DNA from: Bacteroidales bacterium
Lineage (GTDB): Bacteria > Bacteroidota > Bacteroidia > Bacteroidales > P3
Assembly (NCBI GenBank): GCA_017449525.1
Contig: JAFTFL010000013.1
Location: forward strand, 45,634 to 109,633
Length of the DNA stretch: 64,000 bases
Direction of reading: 5' to 3'
Positions 8,846-60,153 of the stretch are shown here, one piece after another (position 1 is the first letter of the stretch; each line of letters begins with the position of its first letter). Both the position numbers and the translations under genes were made by a program. The notes below the pieces were generated by a model. That model had not been told where the DNA came from and searched no databases. It saw only the letters and a program-made list of their open reading frames with translations.

Positions 8846-9565
8846 TTATATGGGAAATACTATGCCGAGCCCCACGGTTAGTCCGCTCTTATCCTTGATG
8901 GACTCCCCCACGCCGTCGGTAATTCCAGCTGCTGGTTTAAACATGGGGTAGAACCAGTCGTAGCCTATATCGAAAGCCAGTCGTACGCCCTCCAAACCAA
9001 TGGGGATATGAAAGGTTAGGTTAGGACCGATGACCGCATACAAATCTGCCGAGAGTGGCTTTACTGTTGACGATGAAGATGAACTACTTCCATGCTCAGA
9101 CGAGGTGGTGGTATGAGTTTCAGAGGTTTGTTGTAAGGTATAAACTCCTAAACCAAATTTGCATGCAATGGTGACAAATCCAACCCGTAGGCCAGGCTCG
9201 TAGTAGAGATAGCCCAAGTTCAAGCCCCTGGTAGTAGAGTCGAAATTAACGGTGCTGTATTCTCGACTGGTAGTATCGCCGTTTACAATGGTGAGGTTGG
9301 AAAGCACCCTGTATGAACCAGAACTATCGTACTTGATGGAGGTGTGAAGCATATTACCATAACCAATACGATGAGTAAAGAGTTCACGAACAAAGAGCTC
9401 TCCCGTGAATGCCGAAATATCCCAATGTGAGGAGGCAACATTTATCATGCCGCCAGCTCGAATGTCCCAGTCCCGTGCAAGCGTCTGCGCTTTGCTACTT
9501 GACCCCATGCTTATCATAACTAAAAGAAAGGGCAAGGCCCAGATTATCATATTTCGTTTCATCAT
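8846..9565 (-). CDS. Outer-membrane beta-barrel-like protein, third gene of the CHASE2-caspase operon
   Basis: I do not recognise a named family. The 239-residue protein begins with a signal peptide of about 26 residues (MMKRNMIIWALPF... SSSKA). The rest alternates polar and hydrophobic residues as in a small beta-barrel, with aromatic strand ends (GYLYYEPGLRVGF, AFDIGYDWFYP) and a final strand GLTVGLGIVFPI. A Ser-rich loop (about residues 155-168) may be a surface loop. Only 4 bases separate it from the caspase-like gene, so the two are surely cotranscribed. Function is unknown; it could be an envelope partner or substrate of the protease. Confidence 0.7.
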   Translation of the reverse strand: MMKRNMIIWALPFLLVMISMGSSSKAQTLARDWDIRAGGMINVASSHWDISAFTGELFVRELFTHRIGYGNMLHTSIKYDSSGSYRVLSNLTIVNGDTTSREYSTVNFDSTTRGLNLGYLYYEPGLRVGFVTIACKFGLGVYTLQQTSETHTTTSSEHGSSSSSSSTVKPLSADLYAVIGPNLTFHIPIGLEGVRLAFDIGYDWFYPMFKPAAGITDGVGESIKDKSGLTVGLGIVFPI

Positions 9566-9569
9566 ATAG

Positions 9570-10724
9570 TTACTTTGTTGGGTTTATGAATGAACGTATG
9601 GCAATGCCATTGCCAGTGGTTGCAGCCCCCTTATTTATTATTAGTGATGGATATAGAGAAGACTCTTTGCAGAGTGATCTTATATTATTGAACTCAGTTA
9701 GTATAGTCTGATTTGTAGAGCCTATGTTTTGGACAAGTATTTTTGTAAAAGGGCTTATCATATCGGGCAGTGCGCCTTCATAAGCTGCTGCCCCTGCTTG
9801 ACACGAGTAAAATACCGATTCGTTAGGAAGTAGCTGAATATCACGCCTTACATTAGTTGGGTCTGTTTTTTCGTGAGGATATTCTATACGGCATGCATCG
9901 TAAAGAATGATAAAGGTTGGACCCATTGATGTGTTTTTCCTAAATTGCTCCAGCAGTTTTTTAACTGACAAATATTTCTTTCTTATTTTCTTTTTTGAGA
10001 TGCGAGTATCTTTGGGTAATAGGTAGTCTTCTCCTCCAATACGCATCCCATGTCCAGAAAAATATATGAGCAACATATCGTATGGAGGTGGGTTGTCTCC
10101 ATTATCTCCTACAACGTTTGCCTGTTTCCAAAAGTCTGTAAGTCTCTTATCTATTGTCTTTTGTGTGGCATCGCAGAGGGGTAGTATGTCGAATCCCAAA
10201 TGAGACAATTTGCTCAGCACATAGTCGACATCCCTTACAGGAGACTTAAGCTTGAGCGCATCCTTGTCGTATTCGTTTATGCCAATTACTAATGCCAGTC
10301 TTTTGCATTTTCCAAACCTTACTGTATCGGTAATTCCTTCAATGAATTTGGATTCATAAATGCCTTTGGTACTTTGGGATTTATGTATAGCTTTTGAGAA
10401 GGATAATGTTTTGTGGGTACTCTCTATAAGGTTGCTTACAGTGTTAGAGAAATTAGTATACTCTTCCCCTTTAATTTCTATAATATGATCAAGAGTCCCA
10501 ACATTATGAAGTTGCATTGACTTAAATATCGCTAAAAGGCACACCATATCGTTCCCTTTCACAGTGTCTCCCTTTTTGACATACCTTCCATTGATGGTAC
10601 AGCTATTTTGTGGTTCCAGTTCGTCAATAGCATACCGCGATTCTGGTTGCCCAATGCCGAGCATCGGGATGGACAGAAGAACTGATAGAATGAATCGTTT
10701 CGTTCGTTTTCGTGTCATATTCAT
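9570..10724 (-). CDS. Caspase-like (peptidase family C14) protein with signal peptide
   Basis: The protein has 384 residues. A signal peptide (about residues 1-25) is followed by a small N-terminal domain (about 38-110) with the pattern INGRYVKKGDTVKGND. The caspase p20 fold starts at LALVIGINEY (143-152). The catalytic dyad is complete: His225 in IYFSGHG and Cys278 in ILYDACR. Between them lies DYLLPKDT, as in bacterial metacaspase-like proteins. A late segment, SVFYSCQAGAAAYE, matches the usual strand after the active site. The signal peptide suggests a periplasmic or surface protease. It sits 5 bases after the CHASE2-like gene and 4 before the barrel gene. Target protein is unknown. Confidence 0.88.
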   Translation of the reverse strand: MNMTRKRTKRFILSVLLSIPMLGIGQPESRYAIDELEPQNSCTINGRYVKKGDTVKGNDMVCLLAIFKSMQLHNVGTLDHIIEIKGEEYTNFSNTVSNLIESTHKTLSFSKAIHKSQSTKGIYESKFIEGITDTVRFGKCKRLALVIGINEYDKDALKLKSPVRDVDYVLSKLSHLGFDILPLCDATQKTIDKRLTDFWKQANVVGDNGDNPPPYDMLLIYFSGHGMRIGGEDYLLPKDTRISKKKIRKKYLSVKKLLEQFRKNTSMGPTFIILYDACRIEYPHEKTDPTNVRRDIQLLPNESVFYSCQAGAAAYEGALPDMISPFTKILVQNIGSTNQTILTEFNNIRSLCKESSLYPSLIINKGAATTGNGIAIRSFINPTK

Positions 10725-10729
10725 TTTGT

Positions 10730-11902
10730 TTATTTGTTTTTCTTTTCATGACGTACTTGCCACCAGTTGCTCCACAAAGTGAATACCATTGCAGGCAAAG
10801 CAAAGCTATATATTCTGTCGAAGGCTACGTAGATGATGGCGGTCATGAGGGCAGTTAAGGTTCCAAAGCTAACAAAGGAAAGCAGTAACCGTAGCGCGGG
10901 CTGTTTGATTCGTGTAGCAGTGTTACGAGAGTGGCCACGCATAATAAGAAGTGCAAACAAGAAATAGGTCAATAACGGAATAATCAGATACCAGCCTAAC
11001 CAGTGATGCTTTCTTTTGCATAGGGCTTGGAAAGCCAGCCAATGGTTCATTGGGCCACTTTGCATGCCAATGTAGGACCAATGTGTATCGTTCTTGAAAT
11101 CGCCCACAATGATGTGTGATTTTCTTGCTGCGCATATGTCTTTGAATCTGTTCCAAATATTAGAGTTGTTTAGCAGGTCTTCTATGTTATACTGATATGG
11201 GTAGATATCGGAGTTTATGTGGAATGTAAGAGGAAGATAGTTTGTAATAGGTGTCTTATCTTCGCAGTAGAGCGACGACCAATGCCAAAGCTTATGTATA
11301 TGGCCGGTATGGCTTCTGATGGTATGCCTGTACATTTCCCAAGCGACTGATTCGCCCTCTTCTTGTTCTATTTCGTAGTATCGGCATCGGTTGTCATAAG
11401 GTTTGATTGTATAACTTGTGGCGAAAGCAATGTTTCGCAGACTTGCATCAATAAAAGGAGTTTCTTCCTCATTTTTGGCAATGGCTATGTCATGCATGTG
11501 GAGTAGCTTATCTGCCAGTAGTGTGTCCCACGGTGTGAGGGAATCCCTTTGAAATTGGATGTCCAGAAATAGAAAAGCATAGGGGAGTGTATCTACCTTT
11601 TGCAAGAACTCCAATATTATTTGTGGGTCAGTAATAACCTCGCGTTGTGGTGAAGTAGCAGTTCCTCCCAAGCTTACCACGTGCTTGGCATTAGACACGT
11701 CAACAAAAAGCGCTCCCTTGCATTCGTCGTGTTCTCTCCAACTGTTCGTCCATCTCTCAAGCCGACAGAACATACCCATCCGTTCGTTCTCGAACAGTCG
11801 ATATTTCGAGTTGCTTGCGGCATAATCCAGCCCCAGCAGCCCTACGGCTACAAGCAAACTGATACCCACAGGCTTCATCGTCTTCTTCCACTTTTCTCTC
11901 AT
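10730..11902 (-). CDS. CHASE2-like sensor membrane protein, first gene of the caspase operon
   Basis: This 390-residue protein has one membrane helix (about 10-28), a large extracytoplasmic domain, then three or four helices (about 303-322, 336-362, 364-380) and a short basic tail. That is the topology of CHASE2 proteins. Two internal patterns fit CHASE2: AFLFLDIQF...D.LLADKL (109-133) and SHIIVGDF...DTH (262-273) followed by a G-P-M-N-H-LAFQAL stretch. No kinase or cyclase domain follows, so output must come from a partner, presumably the caspase-like protein 5 bases downstream. I prefer the ATG at 11902. A TTG at 11932 would add ten residues and also exists in the decayed leader copy. CHASE2 assignment is by pattern only. 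Confidence 0.72.
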   Translation of the reverse strand: MREKWKKTMKPVGISLLVAVGLLGLDYAASNSKYRLFENERMGMFCRLERWTNSWREHDECKGALFVDVSNAKHVVSLGGTATSPQREVITDPQIILEFLQKVDTLPYAFLFLDIQFQRDSLTPWDTLLADKLLHMHDIAIAKNEEETPFIDASLRNIAFATSYTIKPYDNRCRYYEIEQEEGESVAWEMYRHTIRSHTGHIHKLWHWSSLYCEDKTPITNYLPLTFHINSDIYPYQYNIEDLLNNSNIWNRFKDICAARKSHIIVGDFKNDTHWSYIGMQSGPMNHWLAFQALCKRKHHWLGWYLIIPLLTYFLFALLIMRGHSRNTATRIKQPALRLLLSFVSFGTLTALMTAIIYVAFDRIYSFALPAMVFTLWSNWWQVRHEKKNK

Positions 11903-11907
11903 TGTAG

Positions 11908-12190
11908 AGTTTTCGTTGCCCGAAGTCTCCAATGGGCATGGTACATATCAAGAAGAAAGGCATGAGACTTTATGTGCTCATGTCCGTCAAATCTGAGGTG
12001 TCGCCAAACACCTATGTAGGAACGGTTGATGGAACCTTAATCTCACGCCTGACGGTATGCGGATATAGTAGCATACACATACAAGCGAAAGCACAATGCT
12101 CCGTCCTCCTACATGAAAGATTTGGCGAATTTTCAGACTTAGGACACTTATGCAATGTCTTTATTGCAACTGCTTACGTGCTCTTGTAAG
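11908..12190 (-). promoter_or_regulatory. Structured 5' leader of the CHASE2-caspase operon (copy 1)
   Basis: This is the transcribed leader between the minus-strand promoter near 12200 and the CHASE2-like gene. Hairpins visible in it are GTATGC/GCATAC (12055-12060 with 12071-12076), GGTT/AACC (12024-12027 with 12033-12036), AGGTGT/ACACCT near 12000-12016, and a long inverted repeat at 12166-12197. A second copy at 12660-12970 keeps the same order of stems. The six-pair stem reads GGTGCC/GGCACC there, so four pairs change with pairing kept. The single-stranded CTCACGCCTGA (12042-12052, + strand) is identical in both. I match it to no riboswitch that I know. Confidence 0.7.
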
Positions 12191-12204
12191 CAGTTGCAAA
12201 AGTA
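12166..12204 (-). promoter_or_regulatory. Promoter of the CHASE2-caspase operon with an overlapping 12-bp inverted repeat
   Basis: On the minus strand the -7 box TACTTTTG lies at 12204-12197, matching the Bacteroidetes TAnnTTTG consensus. The inverted repeat GCAACTGCTTAC (12166-12177) and GTAAGCAGTTGC (12186-12197) begins at the edge of the box, with an 8-base centre. It would cover the transcription start. It could therefore be a repressor operator in DNA, or the first hairpin of the leader RNA. No good -33 TTG is seen at the usual distance. Confidence 0.6.
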
Positions 12205-12270
12205 CGAAAACTTTTTGGATGAAGCTCTTGCTTGTGTGCCCTTCTGCTGTCGTGCGTTACCATGAGTAAG

Positions 12271-12659
12271 AACCGCACAGTAAATACCCCTATAGCGCAT
12301 GGTAATTGGTGCCACCGTACTCTACAGGAGAGGAGGAAAAGACCGAGGCTGCCAACGGTGGCCTCGGTGTAATACAGGATGACGTAGAGAATGAAACCTT
12401 GACGTGACCGAGGTGGGGGGCGATGTTGTGCTGTAGTAGGTGGAATATCGGGCTCTCAGCGATGTCCTGCTTGGCGGGGATGTGGCGTATGATGCTGTCG
12501 GCTGTCGGTGTTCTCGCTGGTTCGTCCGAATTGGGTCGGTCGGTTCATGCCTGCGTGGACCGATAAGTCCCGCGCTTGGGCGTTCCGCGTGGAGCAGGCG
12601 GGGCTGAGGTGTAGCGGTGATGCTGCCAGCAATGTCGTTTTGTTACCTATTGGTGTATT
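12271..12659. other. Non-coding stretch between the two leader copies
   Basis: No supported gene is seen. On the minus strand this is where a gene behind leader copy 2 should lie, but the frame after the TTG matching 11932 stops after 12 codons, and I cannot align the rest to the CHASE2-like gene. It is best read as decayed sequence. Confidence 0.5.
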
Positions 12660-12970
12660 GAGTTTTTGTTGCTCACAACCTCCAACGGGTGTTCAAGTAA
12701 AGGTGAGAAGAGATGCATGAGGTTTGTGTACTTTTCTCATCCCTTTGTTACGAGGAATCGGCAAGCACCTTCGAGAAAACGGTTGGGGAACCAAACTCAC
12801 GCCTGAAGGGTAGGTGCCTAAAAGTGGCACCATACACGCACAATCGAAAGCACAAATGCTACGTCCCTCCTCTTTGAATTTTGCCGATTTCGATAACAGG
12901 ACTAAAGCAAGTCCTGTTTTCCTTGTAACTGCTTAATAGCTCTTGTGAGCAGCTGCAGGAGCGCGAAAAC
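12660..12970 (-). repeat. Second, diverged copy of the CHASE2-caspase leader
   Basis: About 310 bases align end to end with 11908-12211. Shared blocks are CTCACGCCTGA (12796-12806), the GGTT/AACC hairpin (12781-12792), GCGAAAGCAC-like sequence near 12844, the AGCA/TGCT hairpin, and AGCTCTTG within the promoter-side inverted repeat. The homology runs into the region matching the TTG start of the downstream gene. The -7 box has decayed (GCGCTCCTG in place of GTACTTTTG), so this copy is probably silent. It carries its own perfect 9-bp stem AACAGGACT/AGTCCTGTT (near 12895-12919). Confidence 0.7.
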
Positions 12971-59631: not shown

Positions 59632-59659
59632 CAACGCCAAAGACAGAGAGAATTGTCCG

Positions 59660-59870
59660 CTCGACGGGTCGCAAGCAGACACCACCGTCTGCCACGCCAA
59701 GAGGGAATCGGGTGCAAATCCCGAACAGTCCCGCTGCTGTGAGCCCAGCCGATAAGGCACCGTCCTGCAGTCGTAGCACCCCCCAAAGGGTGCATCCACT
59801 GTGCACCGCCACAGGCGCATGGGAAGGAGAGACGCAGGACCGCGGCAAGTCAGAAGACCTGCCCGTGCGA
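59660..59870 (+). promoter_or_regulatory. Cobalamin (B12) riboswitch
   Basis: The conserved core is present in order: GGGAATCGGGTGCAAATCCC (59703-59722), AACAGTCCCGCTGCTGTGA (about 59724-59742), CCACTGTGCACCGCCACAGG, GGGAAGG (59821-59827), and the B12 box AGTCAGAAGACCTGCC (59849-59864). It controls the surface-protein gene 284 bases downstream. In known cases cobalamin binding lowers expression, so the genes should be on when B12 is scarce. Confidence 0.93.
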
Positions 59871-60153
59871 GCGTAGAGAAGCGAGGAAAGAGTGGTGCGG
59901 CTGTGGCCGCGAGTCTCCTCGCCGAGATGGAAAGGCTTTCGAGGAAAGAGCCCGTACACACATGCTGCCACCACTTCGGCATCGCCGCCCACCCGAGCCT
60001 GCTGCCCCACGGCAGAGGAGTTTGAGTACCCTGAGTGCGGCGTGCTGCCCGTGCATCTTGCTTGTTGTACCCCCATGCCCCTTTCCCCCAAAGCCCCGAG
60101 CGAAGGAGGAGAGAGGAAACGGAGTTATACACATAATATAATGTAACAACAAG

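Follow-up and report, generated by a model that had tools for sequence, protein, structure and literature searches.

The ops/JUMPStart and EAR elements are antitermination leaders of polysaccharide operons. Competing helices are a usual mark of a switch. In Bacteroides thetaiotaomicron, 13.5% of mRNAs have 5' UTRs longer than 100 nt, and about 2% of such UTRs are predicted to hold a riboswitch, according to PMC7366714. Below, we describe a large conserved RNA, apparently without a name, that many Bacteroidota of the gut and elsewhere carry, often in several copies; that it forms a class of structured leader RNA we regard as nearly certain. The starting point was the window, by which we mean the whole 64,000-nt stretch of Bacteroidales DNA analysed (GCA_017449525.1, contig JAFTFL010000013.1, positions 45,634 to 109,633). 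It contains two copies, both on the minus strand and at the positions given by a first-pass annotation, which align over about 305 nt, as that annotation had claimed. The copies, the genes of the operon behind copy 1 and the stem on which the annotation mainly relied are as follows.

11917..12196, minus strand: copy 1 of the leader RNA, about 280 nt, from approximately the presumed transcription start to the end of the 3' hairpin
12660..12955, minus strand: copy 2 of the leader RNA; most of P2-P6 is intact, whereas P1 has degenerated
10730..11902, minus strand: first gene, ATG at 11902, 390 aa, a membrane protein by eye
9570..10724, minus strand: second gene, a caspase-domain protein of 384 aa (Peptidase_C14, E 1e-20, Pfam)
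8846..9565, minus strand: third gene, 239 aa, no family match
12055-12060/12071-12076, minus strand: GUAUGC/GCAUAC stem at the top of P6 (P6c) in copy 1
12813-12818/12826-12831, minus strand: P6c stem in copy 2

It had been proposed that four of the six pairs of the GTATGC stem are replaced between the copies with pairing maintained. The count is partly a matter of register: the outer GUA/UAC pairs are still present in copy 2, and it is the inner stretch that has grown longer, being GC-rich and carrying a bulged U. The helix is real, with three of the seven P6c pairs forming in all 61 copies that have letters there, but it hardly covaries within the genus. The AGCA/TGCT hairpin corresponds to P6a, each pair of which forms in 59 to 63 of 63 copies; the sequence CTCACGCCTGA is the reverse complement of UCAGGCGUGAG, which is near-invariant. 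The GGTT/AACC hairpin is absent from the family consensus (63-copy alignment, judged by eye) and was set aside as a family feature. Of the gene labels, the caspase domain of the second gene holds; CHASE2 for the first gene is unconfirmed, finding support neither in Pfam at E<=1 nor in NCBIfam. Placement before caspase or CHASE2 genes is not general: there is no caspase family among those listed for the 64 genus and 69 order downstream genes (first gene only), although single cases could be hidden since the tallies list the 25 commonest of 33 (genus) and of 38 (order) families.

With the covariance model R1, which spans P1-P6 in 208 positions, copy 1 scores 187.2 bits (E 2.1e-41) and copy 2 113.1 bits. 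Copy 2 is probably a decaying duplicate, since its P1 is damaged, its promoter site (12956-12963, CGCTCCTG) has lost the promoter motif and the longest ORF close behind it has 58 aa. The idea of a gene remnant between the two copies was rejected, the loci compared giving no match. The genome of the window holds four copies in all; the third (C21:16998-17207) stands before a 250-aa protein with a PADLOC match (PDC-S31, 3.2e-9) and the fourth (C21:6753-6964) before a 471-aa ORF. Paired copies in one locus also occur within the genus (L091, L096). Leaders are paired in one locus of L160 as well, and close neighbours recalling the pair in the window are found in Bacteroides acidifaciens (L200, 5089-5310 and 5517-5713) and Parabacteroides distasonis (L217, 378-597 and 707-893).

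The family has homologues in genus, order, class and phylum. BLASTN with copy 1 against 61 genomes gave matches at E<=0.001 in 29, all of the genus of the window, the longer ones being 70-81% identical to copy 1. Covariance models reach further, under the stricter search filters that apply above 40 genomes, used for the genus, order, class and phylum sets. R1 matches 98 of 120 genomes of the genus (54 of the 62 with at least 90% completeness and at most 5% contamination) and 73 of 393 genomes of the order, in 44 of 206 genera. With the later model R2, matches appear in 45 of 395 genomes of the class, 35 of which belong to other orders, and in 11 of 296 genomes of the phylum, six of which belong to other classes; that 285 of the 296 lack a match suggests that false positives are not common. 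Members are about 290 nt long (about 210-290 nt within the genus), and a genome may have up to 10 matches, a count that may include a few echoes because R1 gives weaker antisense matches (L181, L191, L132). A pattern scan of named genomes gave at least 120 stretches. Carriers among the matches listed include B. fragilis Q1F2, B. acidifaciens, B. timonensis, P. distasonis An863, Coprobacter secundus, Butyricimonas synergistica, Odoribacter lunatus, Duncaniella muris and a Candidatus Cryptobacteroides; one match (L157) lies in a record titled Lachnoclostridium, possibly mis-binned.

As the first-pass annotation had surmised, the element appears to correspond to no known class: in the window and 50 further loci, no Rfam family reaches its cut-off over it. 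Over the full window Rfam 15 gave nothing beyond a cobalamin riboswitch (59650-59880) and a tRNA, and the 50 loci, searched at E<=5 or E<=1, gave none at cut-off over the element. Two weaker hits were set aside: MIR2599 over L127 (33.3 of 120 bits, E 0.017), a miRNA family far below threshold and taken as chance, and TPP in L117 (1963-2052), just under cut-off and outside the element. The cobalamin riboswitch lies on the plus strand and scores 77.3 bits. No description of such an RNA was found in the literature searched, judged by title or start of abstract.

Seen through comparison of sequences, the family and its helices are supported by strong covariation that grows in the larger sets, as expected for the functional structured RNA originally suggested. 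Three alignments bear on this: A3, comprising 63 of 65 genus copies (L076 and L078, being partial, were left out); A5, comprising the 106 matches at E<=0.001, including four partial or antisense, found with R1 in 100 loci, 15 of these matches scoring as high as genus members; and A10, comprising 29 matches, 28 of them outside the order. In A3, 93.7% of 4523 cells are paired, against 85.9 +/- 0.3 in 500 shuffles; cells changed on both sides number 359 against 115.9 +/- 8.9, and pairs changed on both sides 32 of 73 against 21.4. Sliding the structure along A3 gives 31.5-45.8% paired, a control that favours the drawn structure because this was derived from the same sequences. The corresponding values are 94.3% against 72.7 paired and 1027 against 295.5 double changes in A5, and 92.3% against 61.8 +/- 1.0 and 335 against 102.9 in A10, counts that lean towards the models because both alignments were fitted to them.

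As drawn from the 63 genus copies, the consensus fold begins with a 5' hairpin (P0), continues with helices P1-P6, where a small hairpin (P4') encloses the 3' arm of P4, and includes a 3' hairpin whose loop forms a pseudoknot with the strand 5' of the P1 3' arm. In copy 1 the elements fall as follows, with the promoter at the head.

12197..12204, minus strand: promoter TACTTTTG, adjoining the RNA 5' end
12164..12199, minus strand: P0, 5' hairpin, here a 14-bp perfect palindrome reaching into the promoter
12155..12162, minus strand: 5' arm of P1, AAAGACAU, closing helix with 11955-11966
12142..12145, minus strand: 5' arm of P2, GUCC, with 3' arm GGAC at 11982-11985; 98.8% of cells paired
12133..12140, minus strand: 5' arm of P3, AAGUCUGA, with 3' arm UCAGAUUU at 11989-11996; most variable helix
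12122..12129, minus strand: 5' arm of P4, UUCGCCAA, with 3' arm UUUGGCGA at 12001-12008
12107..12112, minus strand: 5' arm of P5, GUAGGA, with 3' arm UCCUAC at 12016-12021; all 6 pairs changed on both sides
12042..12091, minus strand: P6, CUUUCGCUUG (12082-12091) with CAGGCGUGAG (12042-12051), GUAUGC/GCAUAC on top
12042-12049, minus strand: strand 2, GGCGUGAG, within P6
11955..11966, minus strand: strand 3, CUCAUGCCUUUC, the 3' arm of P1 with a U-rich tail, complementary to strand 2
11964..11970, minus strand: pseudoknot strand AAGUCUC, complementary to 11923-11929
11917..11938, minus strand: 3' hairpin UGCCC/GGGCA, its loop holding GAGACUU (11923-11929)

The helices differ in how they vary. 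P0 covaries, with 96.3% of cells paired in the 63 copies. P3 has changes on both sides at all seven pairs and is paired in 84.0% of cells in A3 and 98.6% in the model-fitted A5. P4 is near-invariant in the order; in other orders it changes at all seven pairs, with 98.5% of cells paired, and its 3' arm UUUGGCGA is itself the loop of the AGGU/ACCU hairpin P4'. The 3' hairpin is paired in 76.0% of cells of A3, where it occurs in two length types with one column out of register, and L048 and L077 have a different 3' hairpin. A local hairpin, AUGAG/CUCAU, is near-invariant and uninformative. In part of the genus copies (e.g. L047, L062) a small hairpin is added in the apical loop of P6; it carries CUCACGCC, which is also complementary to strand 2 GGCGUGAG and may be a built-in competitor.

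The flanks of the element suggest its role. The copy 1 promoter TACTTTTG is, we take it, of the Bacteroidetes -7 type, TAnnTTTG. Of the 65 genus copies, 61 carry this motif in a 55-nt span around the start of the element, 60 sharing a single register, compared with 59 of 3250 random windows; at order level 92 of 106 matches have it in the preceding 80 nt, a figure that has no separate background. The first ATG opening an ORF of at least 60 aa is 42-108 nt behind P1 (CTCATGCC) in 52 of the 60 genus copies measured, and at order level the start codon follows the end of the model by 36-85 nt in 55 of 77; these ORFs are mechanical calls, and any that begin at a distance of 200 nt or beyond could be erroneous. 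In copy 1 the start codon is 14 nt behind the 3' hairpin. The RNA looks like a leader of the following gene because the promoter motif abuts it and the ORF comes at a set distance, and we infer that the two are transcribed together. An independent gene for a trans-acting sRNA, merely placed before accessory genes, could equally have its own promoter motif and a complete fold, but it would not account for the spacing of the start codons in either set, and we consider it very improbable. Between the 3' hairpin and the ATG, several genus copies (L151, L178 and others) have a stretch resembling GTTGCGCCCGRCACGTATAAGGG, before different genes.

It might also be asked whether the element is structured as DNA, being a repeat or a mobile-element end. 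Such an origin would fit its presence in several copies per genome, its patchy occurrence, its accessory neighbours and the position of several order-level matches near contig ends. Against it are the covarying folds with a strand-specific promoter in fixed register, the divergence of even the longer BLASTN matches from copy 1 and the transposases, none of which appears among the 25 commonest Pfam families listed for genus and order; nor was a transposase or recombinase seen among the downstream genes viewed. A match to an IS or repeat family would have spoken against the first reading; none was encountered in those tallies, where transposase families were sought. Among 2.9 million viral contigs there were eight pattern-matching stretches; phages gave no match with the B. 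fragilis copy as query, and plasmids gave none with the window copy and two with the B. fragilis copy. A mobile-element or phage origin was rejected on these searches, and we find a mobile-element end scarcely credible. One match on a plasmid record of P. distasonis (NZ_OY725790.1, L305) covers 67% of the B. fragilis query at 74% identity and stands just before an annotated hypothetical protein.

Two pairings outside both R1 and R2 bear on how an mRNA leader of this kind might act. The first is the pseudoknot. In 101 of the 106 matches (four partial or antisense ones and one with too little downstream sequence were left out), the complementarity score of a copy with its own partner averages 15.06, against 12.47 +/- 0.23 when partners are swapped (maximum 13.02 of 200), relatedness being ignored. 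Exchanges such as AAUAUCCC/GGGAUAUU, CAGCCC/GGGCUG and UCGUUCCA/UGGAACGA are found. Not every copy has the pseudoknot: in 26 of the 101 the score does not exceed the swapped mean, and sequence comparison supports the pairing in roughly three quarters of the order-level copies examined. The excess in A10 is small (13.86 against 11.95 +/- 0.46, maximum 13.28, relatedness ignored), and 12 of 29 score 11.5 or less. The loop strand ends a median of 25 nt before the ATG in the 33 genus copies with a strong helix.

The second pairing joins strand 2 to strand 3. In the 99 matches with a recognizable strand 2 motif, strands of the same copy score 22.15, against 20.38 +/- 0.23 for swapped ones (maximum 20.97 of 200), and in the 29 of A10 19.38 against 15.72 +/- 0.54 (maximum 17.76 of 300), relatedness being ignored in both; exchanges include GGGGUGGG/UCCACCCC (L283) and GGGGCGUAU/AUACGCUCU (L294). 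The strand 2-3 helix would compete both with P6, which takes up strand 2, and with P1, which takes up strand 3; with relatedness again ignored, P6 and the strand 2-3 helix are two conserved, mutually exclusive pairings of the same strand 2. Strand 3 is continued by U-rich sequence (on average 6.6 T in 10 nt, 100 matches), and the strand 2-3 helix may be a terminator. The tail need not mean this, because in the genus it also pairs with the A-rich arm of P1. The intervening loop, 75 nt in copy 1 and 55-75 nt (median 63) in the 99 matches, is long for an intrinsic terminator. When every fifth of these matches was folded, none of the 20 had strand 2-3 pairs in its minimum free energy structure, and forcing the helix cost 5.8-22.8 kcal/mol (mean 13.0).

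From these elements the following scheme may be drawn. Transcription would start at the promoter abutting the RNA, which would fold into a P1-P6 body closed by P1, with the loop of P4' paired in P4, and the strand 5' of the P1 3' arm would pair with the 3' hairpin loop shortly before the start codon. Strand 2 (GGCGUGRG) would have two possible partners, strand 1 in P6 and strand 3 (CYCAYGCC and the U-rich tail); strand 3 would likewise have two, the 5' arm of P1 and strand 2, the latter choice clashing with the pseudoknot. The stable fold of P1, P6 and pseudoknot would let polymerase through and present the start codon, and some common signal would shift the balance across a group of accessory proteins, exported ones among them. 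A cis-acting leader with abutting promoter, P1-P6 body, pseudoknot and strand 2-3 attenuator, a reading that is partly conjectural, is the one towards which we lean; to an attenuator-like switch as the mechanism we give about an even chance.

Alternatively, the leader might act on translation only, with the 3' hairpin and pseudoknot gating the ribosome and the strand 2-3 pairing being a folding intermediate or a tertiary contact. The pseudoknot does stand before the ATG, its sequence varies with pairing kept, and the closed fold is much the more stable. Such a leader would leave the U-rich tail and the covarying strand 2-3 helix unexplained. A Shine-Dalgarno role is also unlikely, because in 45 genus copies the median distance from the end of the last GGAG to the ATG is 25 nt (8 nt in two); sequestration was rejected on this distance, which is mostly too great. 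We consider control of translation alone fairly unlikely.

The genes under the leader were taken as 64 in the genus (copy 2 of the window, with only its short ORF, was left out) and 69 in the order, the latter from 77 ORFs behind 87 copies, 10 copies having none in reach and eight short or doubtful ORFs being dropped. As control served 60 of 61 other genes of the same genus loci, of at least 150 aa, one having overlapped a target. The targets are rich in proteins with export-signal-like N-termini: by a crude, home-made rule, 30 of 64 in the genus (Fisher p 1.9e-4) and 48 of 69 in the order (p 2.4e-10), each against 9 of 60 controls. The Pfam family seen most often is LRR_5, of the BspA type (8 of 64 and 11 of 69), with at most one member among the 60 controls, for which the 25 largest of 70 families are listed. 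Poly_export proteins make up three of the 69 order-level targets, in B. timonensis, B. fragilis and B. cutis by sequence. Genus targets also include ZorA2-like (2), Mrr (3), PDDEXK_4 (2), a type III methyltransferase (1), and DUF4007 and SspB-like (1 each, possibly one gene). A role specific to defence is not supported: PADLOC models, which are not gene counts, number 67 for the 64 genus targets, 43 for the 60 other genes and 13 for the 69 order targets. The neighbourhoods themselves hold such genes. In four order-level loci (L152, L158, L170, L196) the leader stands before short related ORFs, HTH regulator-like by eye.

These diverse exported and accessory proteins have no common ligand-linked pathway, and the lack of a single target pathway would be unusual for a metabolite riboswitch. 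It could be that the element is the site of a conserved protein, for example a NusG-like antiterminator or an RNA-binding protein, that raises accessory operons as ops/JUMPStart and EAR do. Unrelated targets under one leader, Poly_export among them, and the high number of matches in some genomes fit this, the lack of any Rfam family at cut-off over the element does not, and we judge such a site improbable. Returning to the attenuator, we can extend it only tentatively, and with some doubt, to a phylum-wide riboregulator in which one common signal acts through the three-strand attenuator and start-codon pseudoknot on a shared regulon that, in Bacteroidota including gut commensals, would cover surface adhesins and exopolysaccharide export, joined in some lineages by defence-like genes. 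If the leader is a switch, it would tie together surface proteins, polysaccharide export and other accessory genes whose control in the phylum is little known, and its ligand or partner would be directly testable because culturable carriers exist.

Compared with known systems, the element resembles each in part. The HMP2 candidate RNAs of human microbiomes (PMC8040213) are likewise computed structured candidates, some from Bacteroidetes; those named in the part of that text used here are 38-132 nt and tied to other genes. With ops/JUMPStart and EAR it shares the position ahead of surface and polysaccharide genes at several loci per genome, but, unlike them, it is matched by no Rfam family at cut-off. 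As in attenuators with 1:2 and 2:3 helices, three strands are mutually complementary and the last is followed by U-rich sequence; here, however, the 55-75 nt loop belongs to a stable body and the alternative fold is much less stable. Riboswitches and orphan candidates differ in that the targets of this leader (exported and LRR proteins, restriction and other defence-like genes, polysaccharide export) share no metabolic pathway, and in the length of the RNA, about 210-290 nt within the genus. What it has in common with them is a complex conserved fold with a pseudoknot in the 5' part of the mRNA, and alternative pairings near a U-rich tail and the start codon; like them, it is a conserved structured RNA in 5' leader position.
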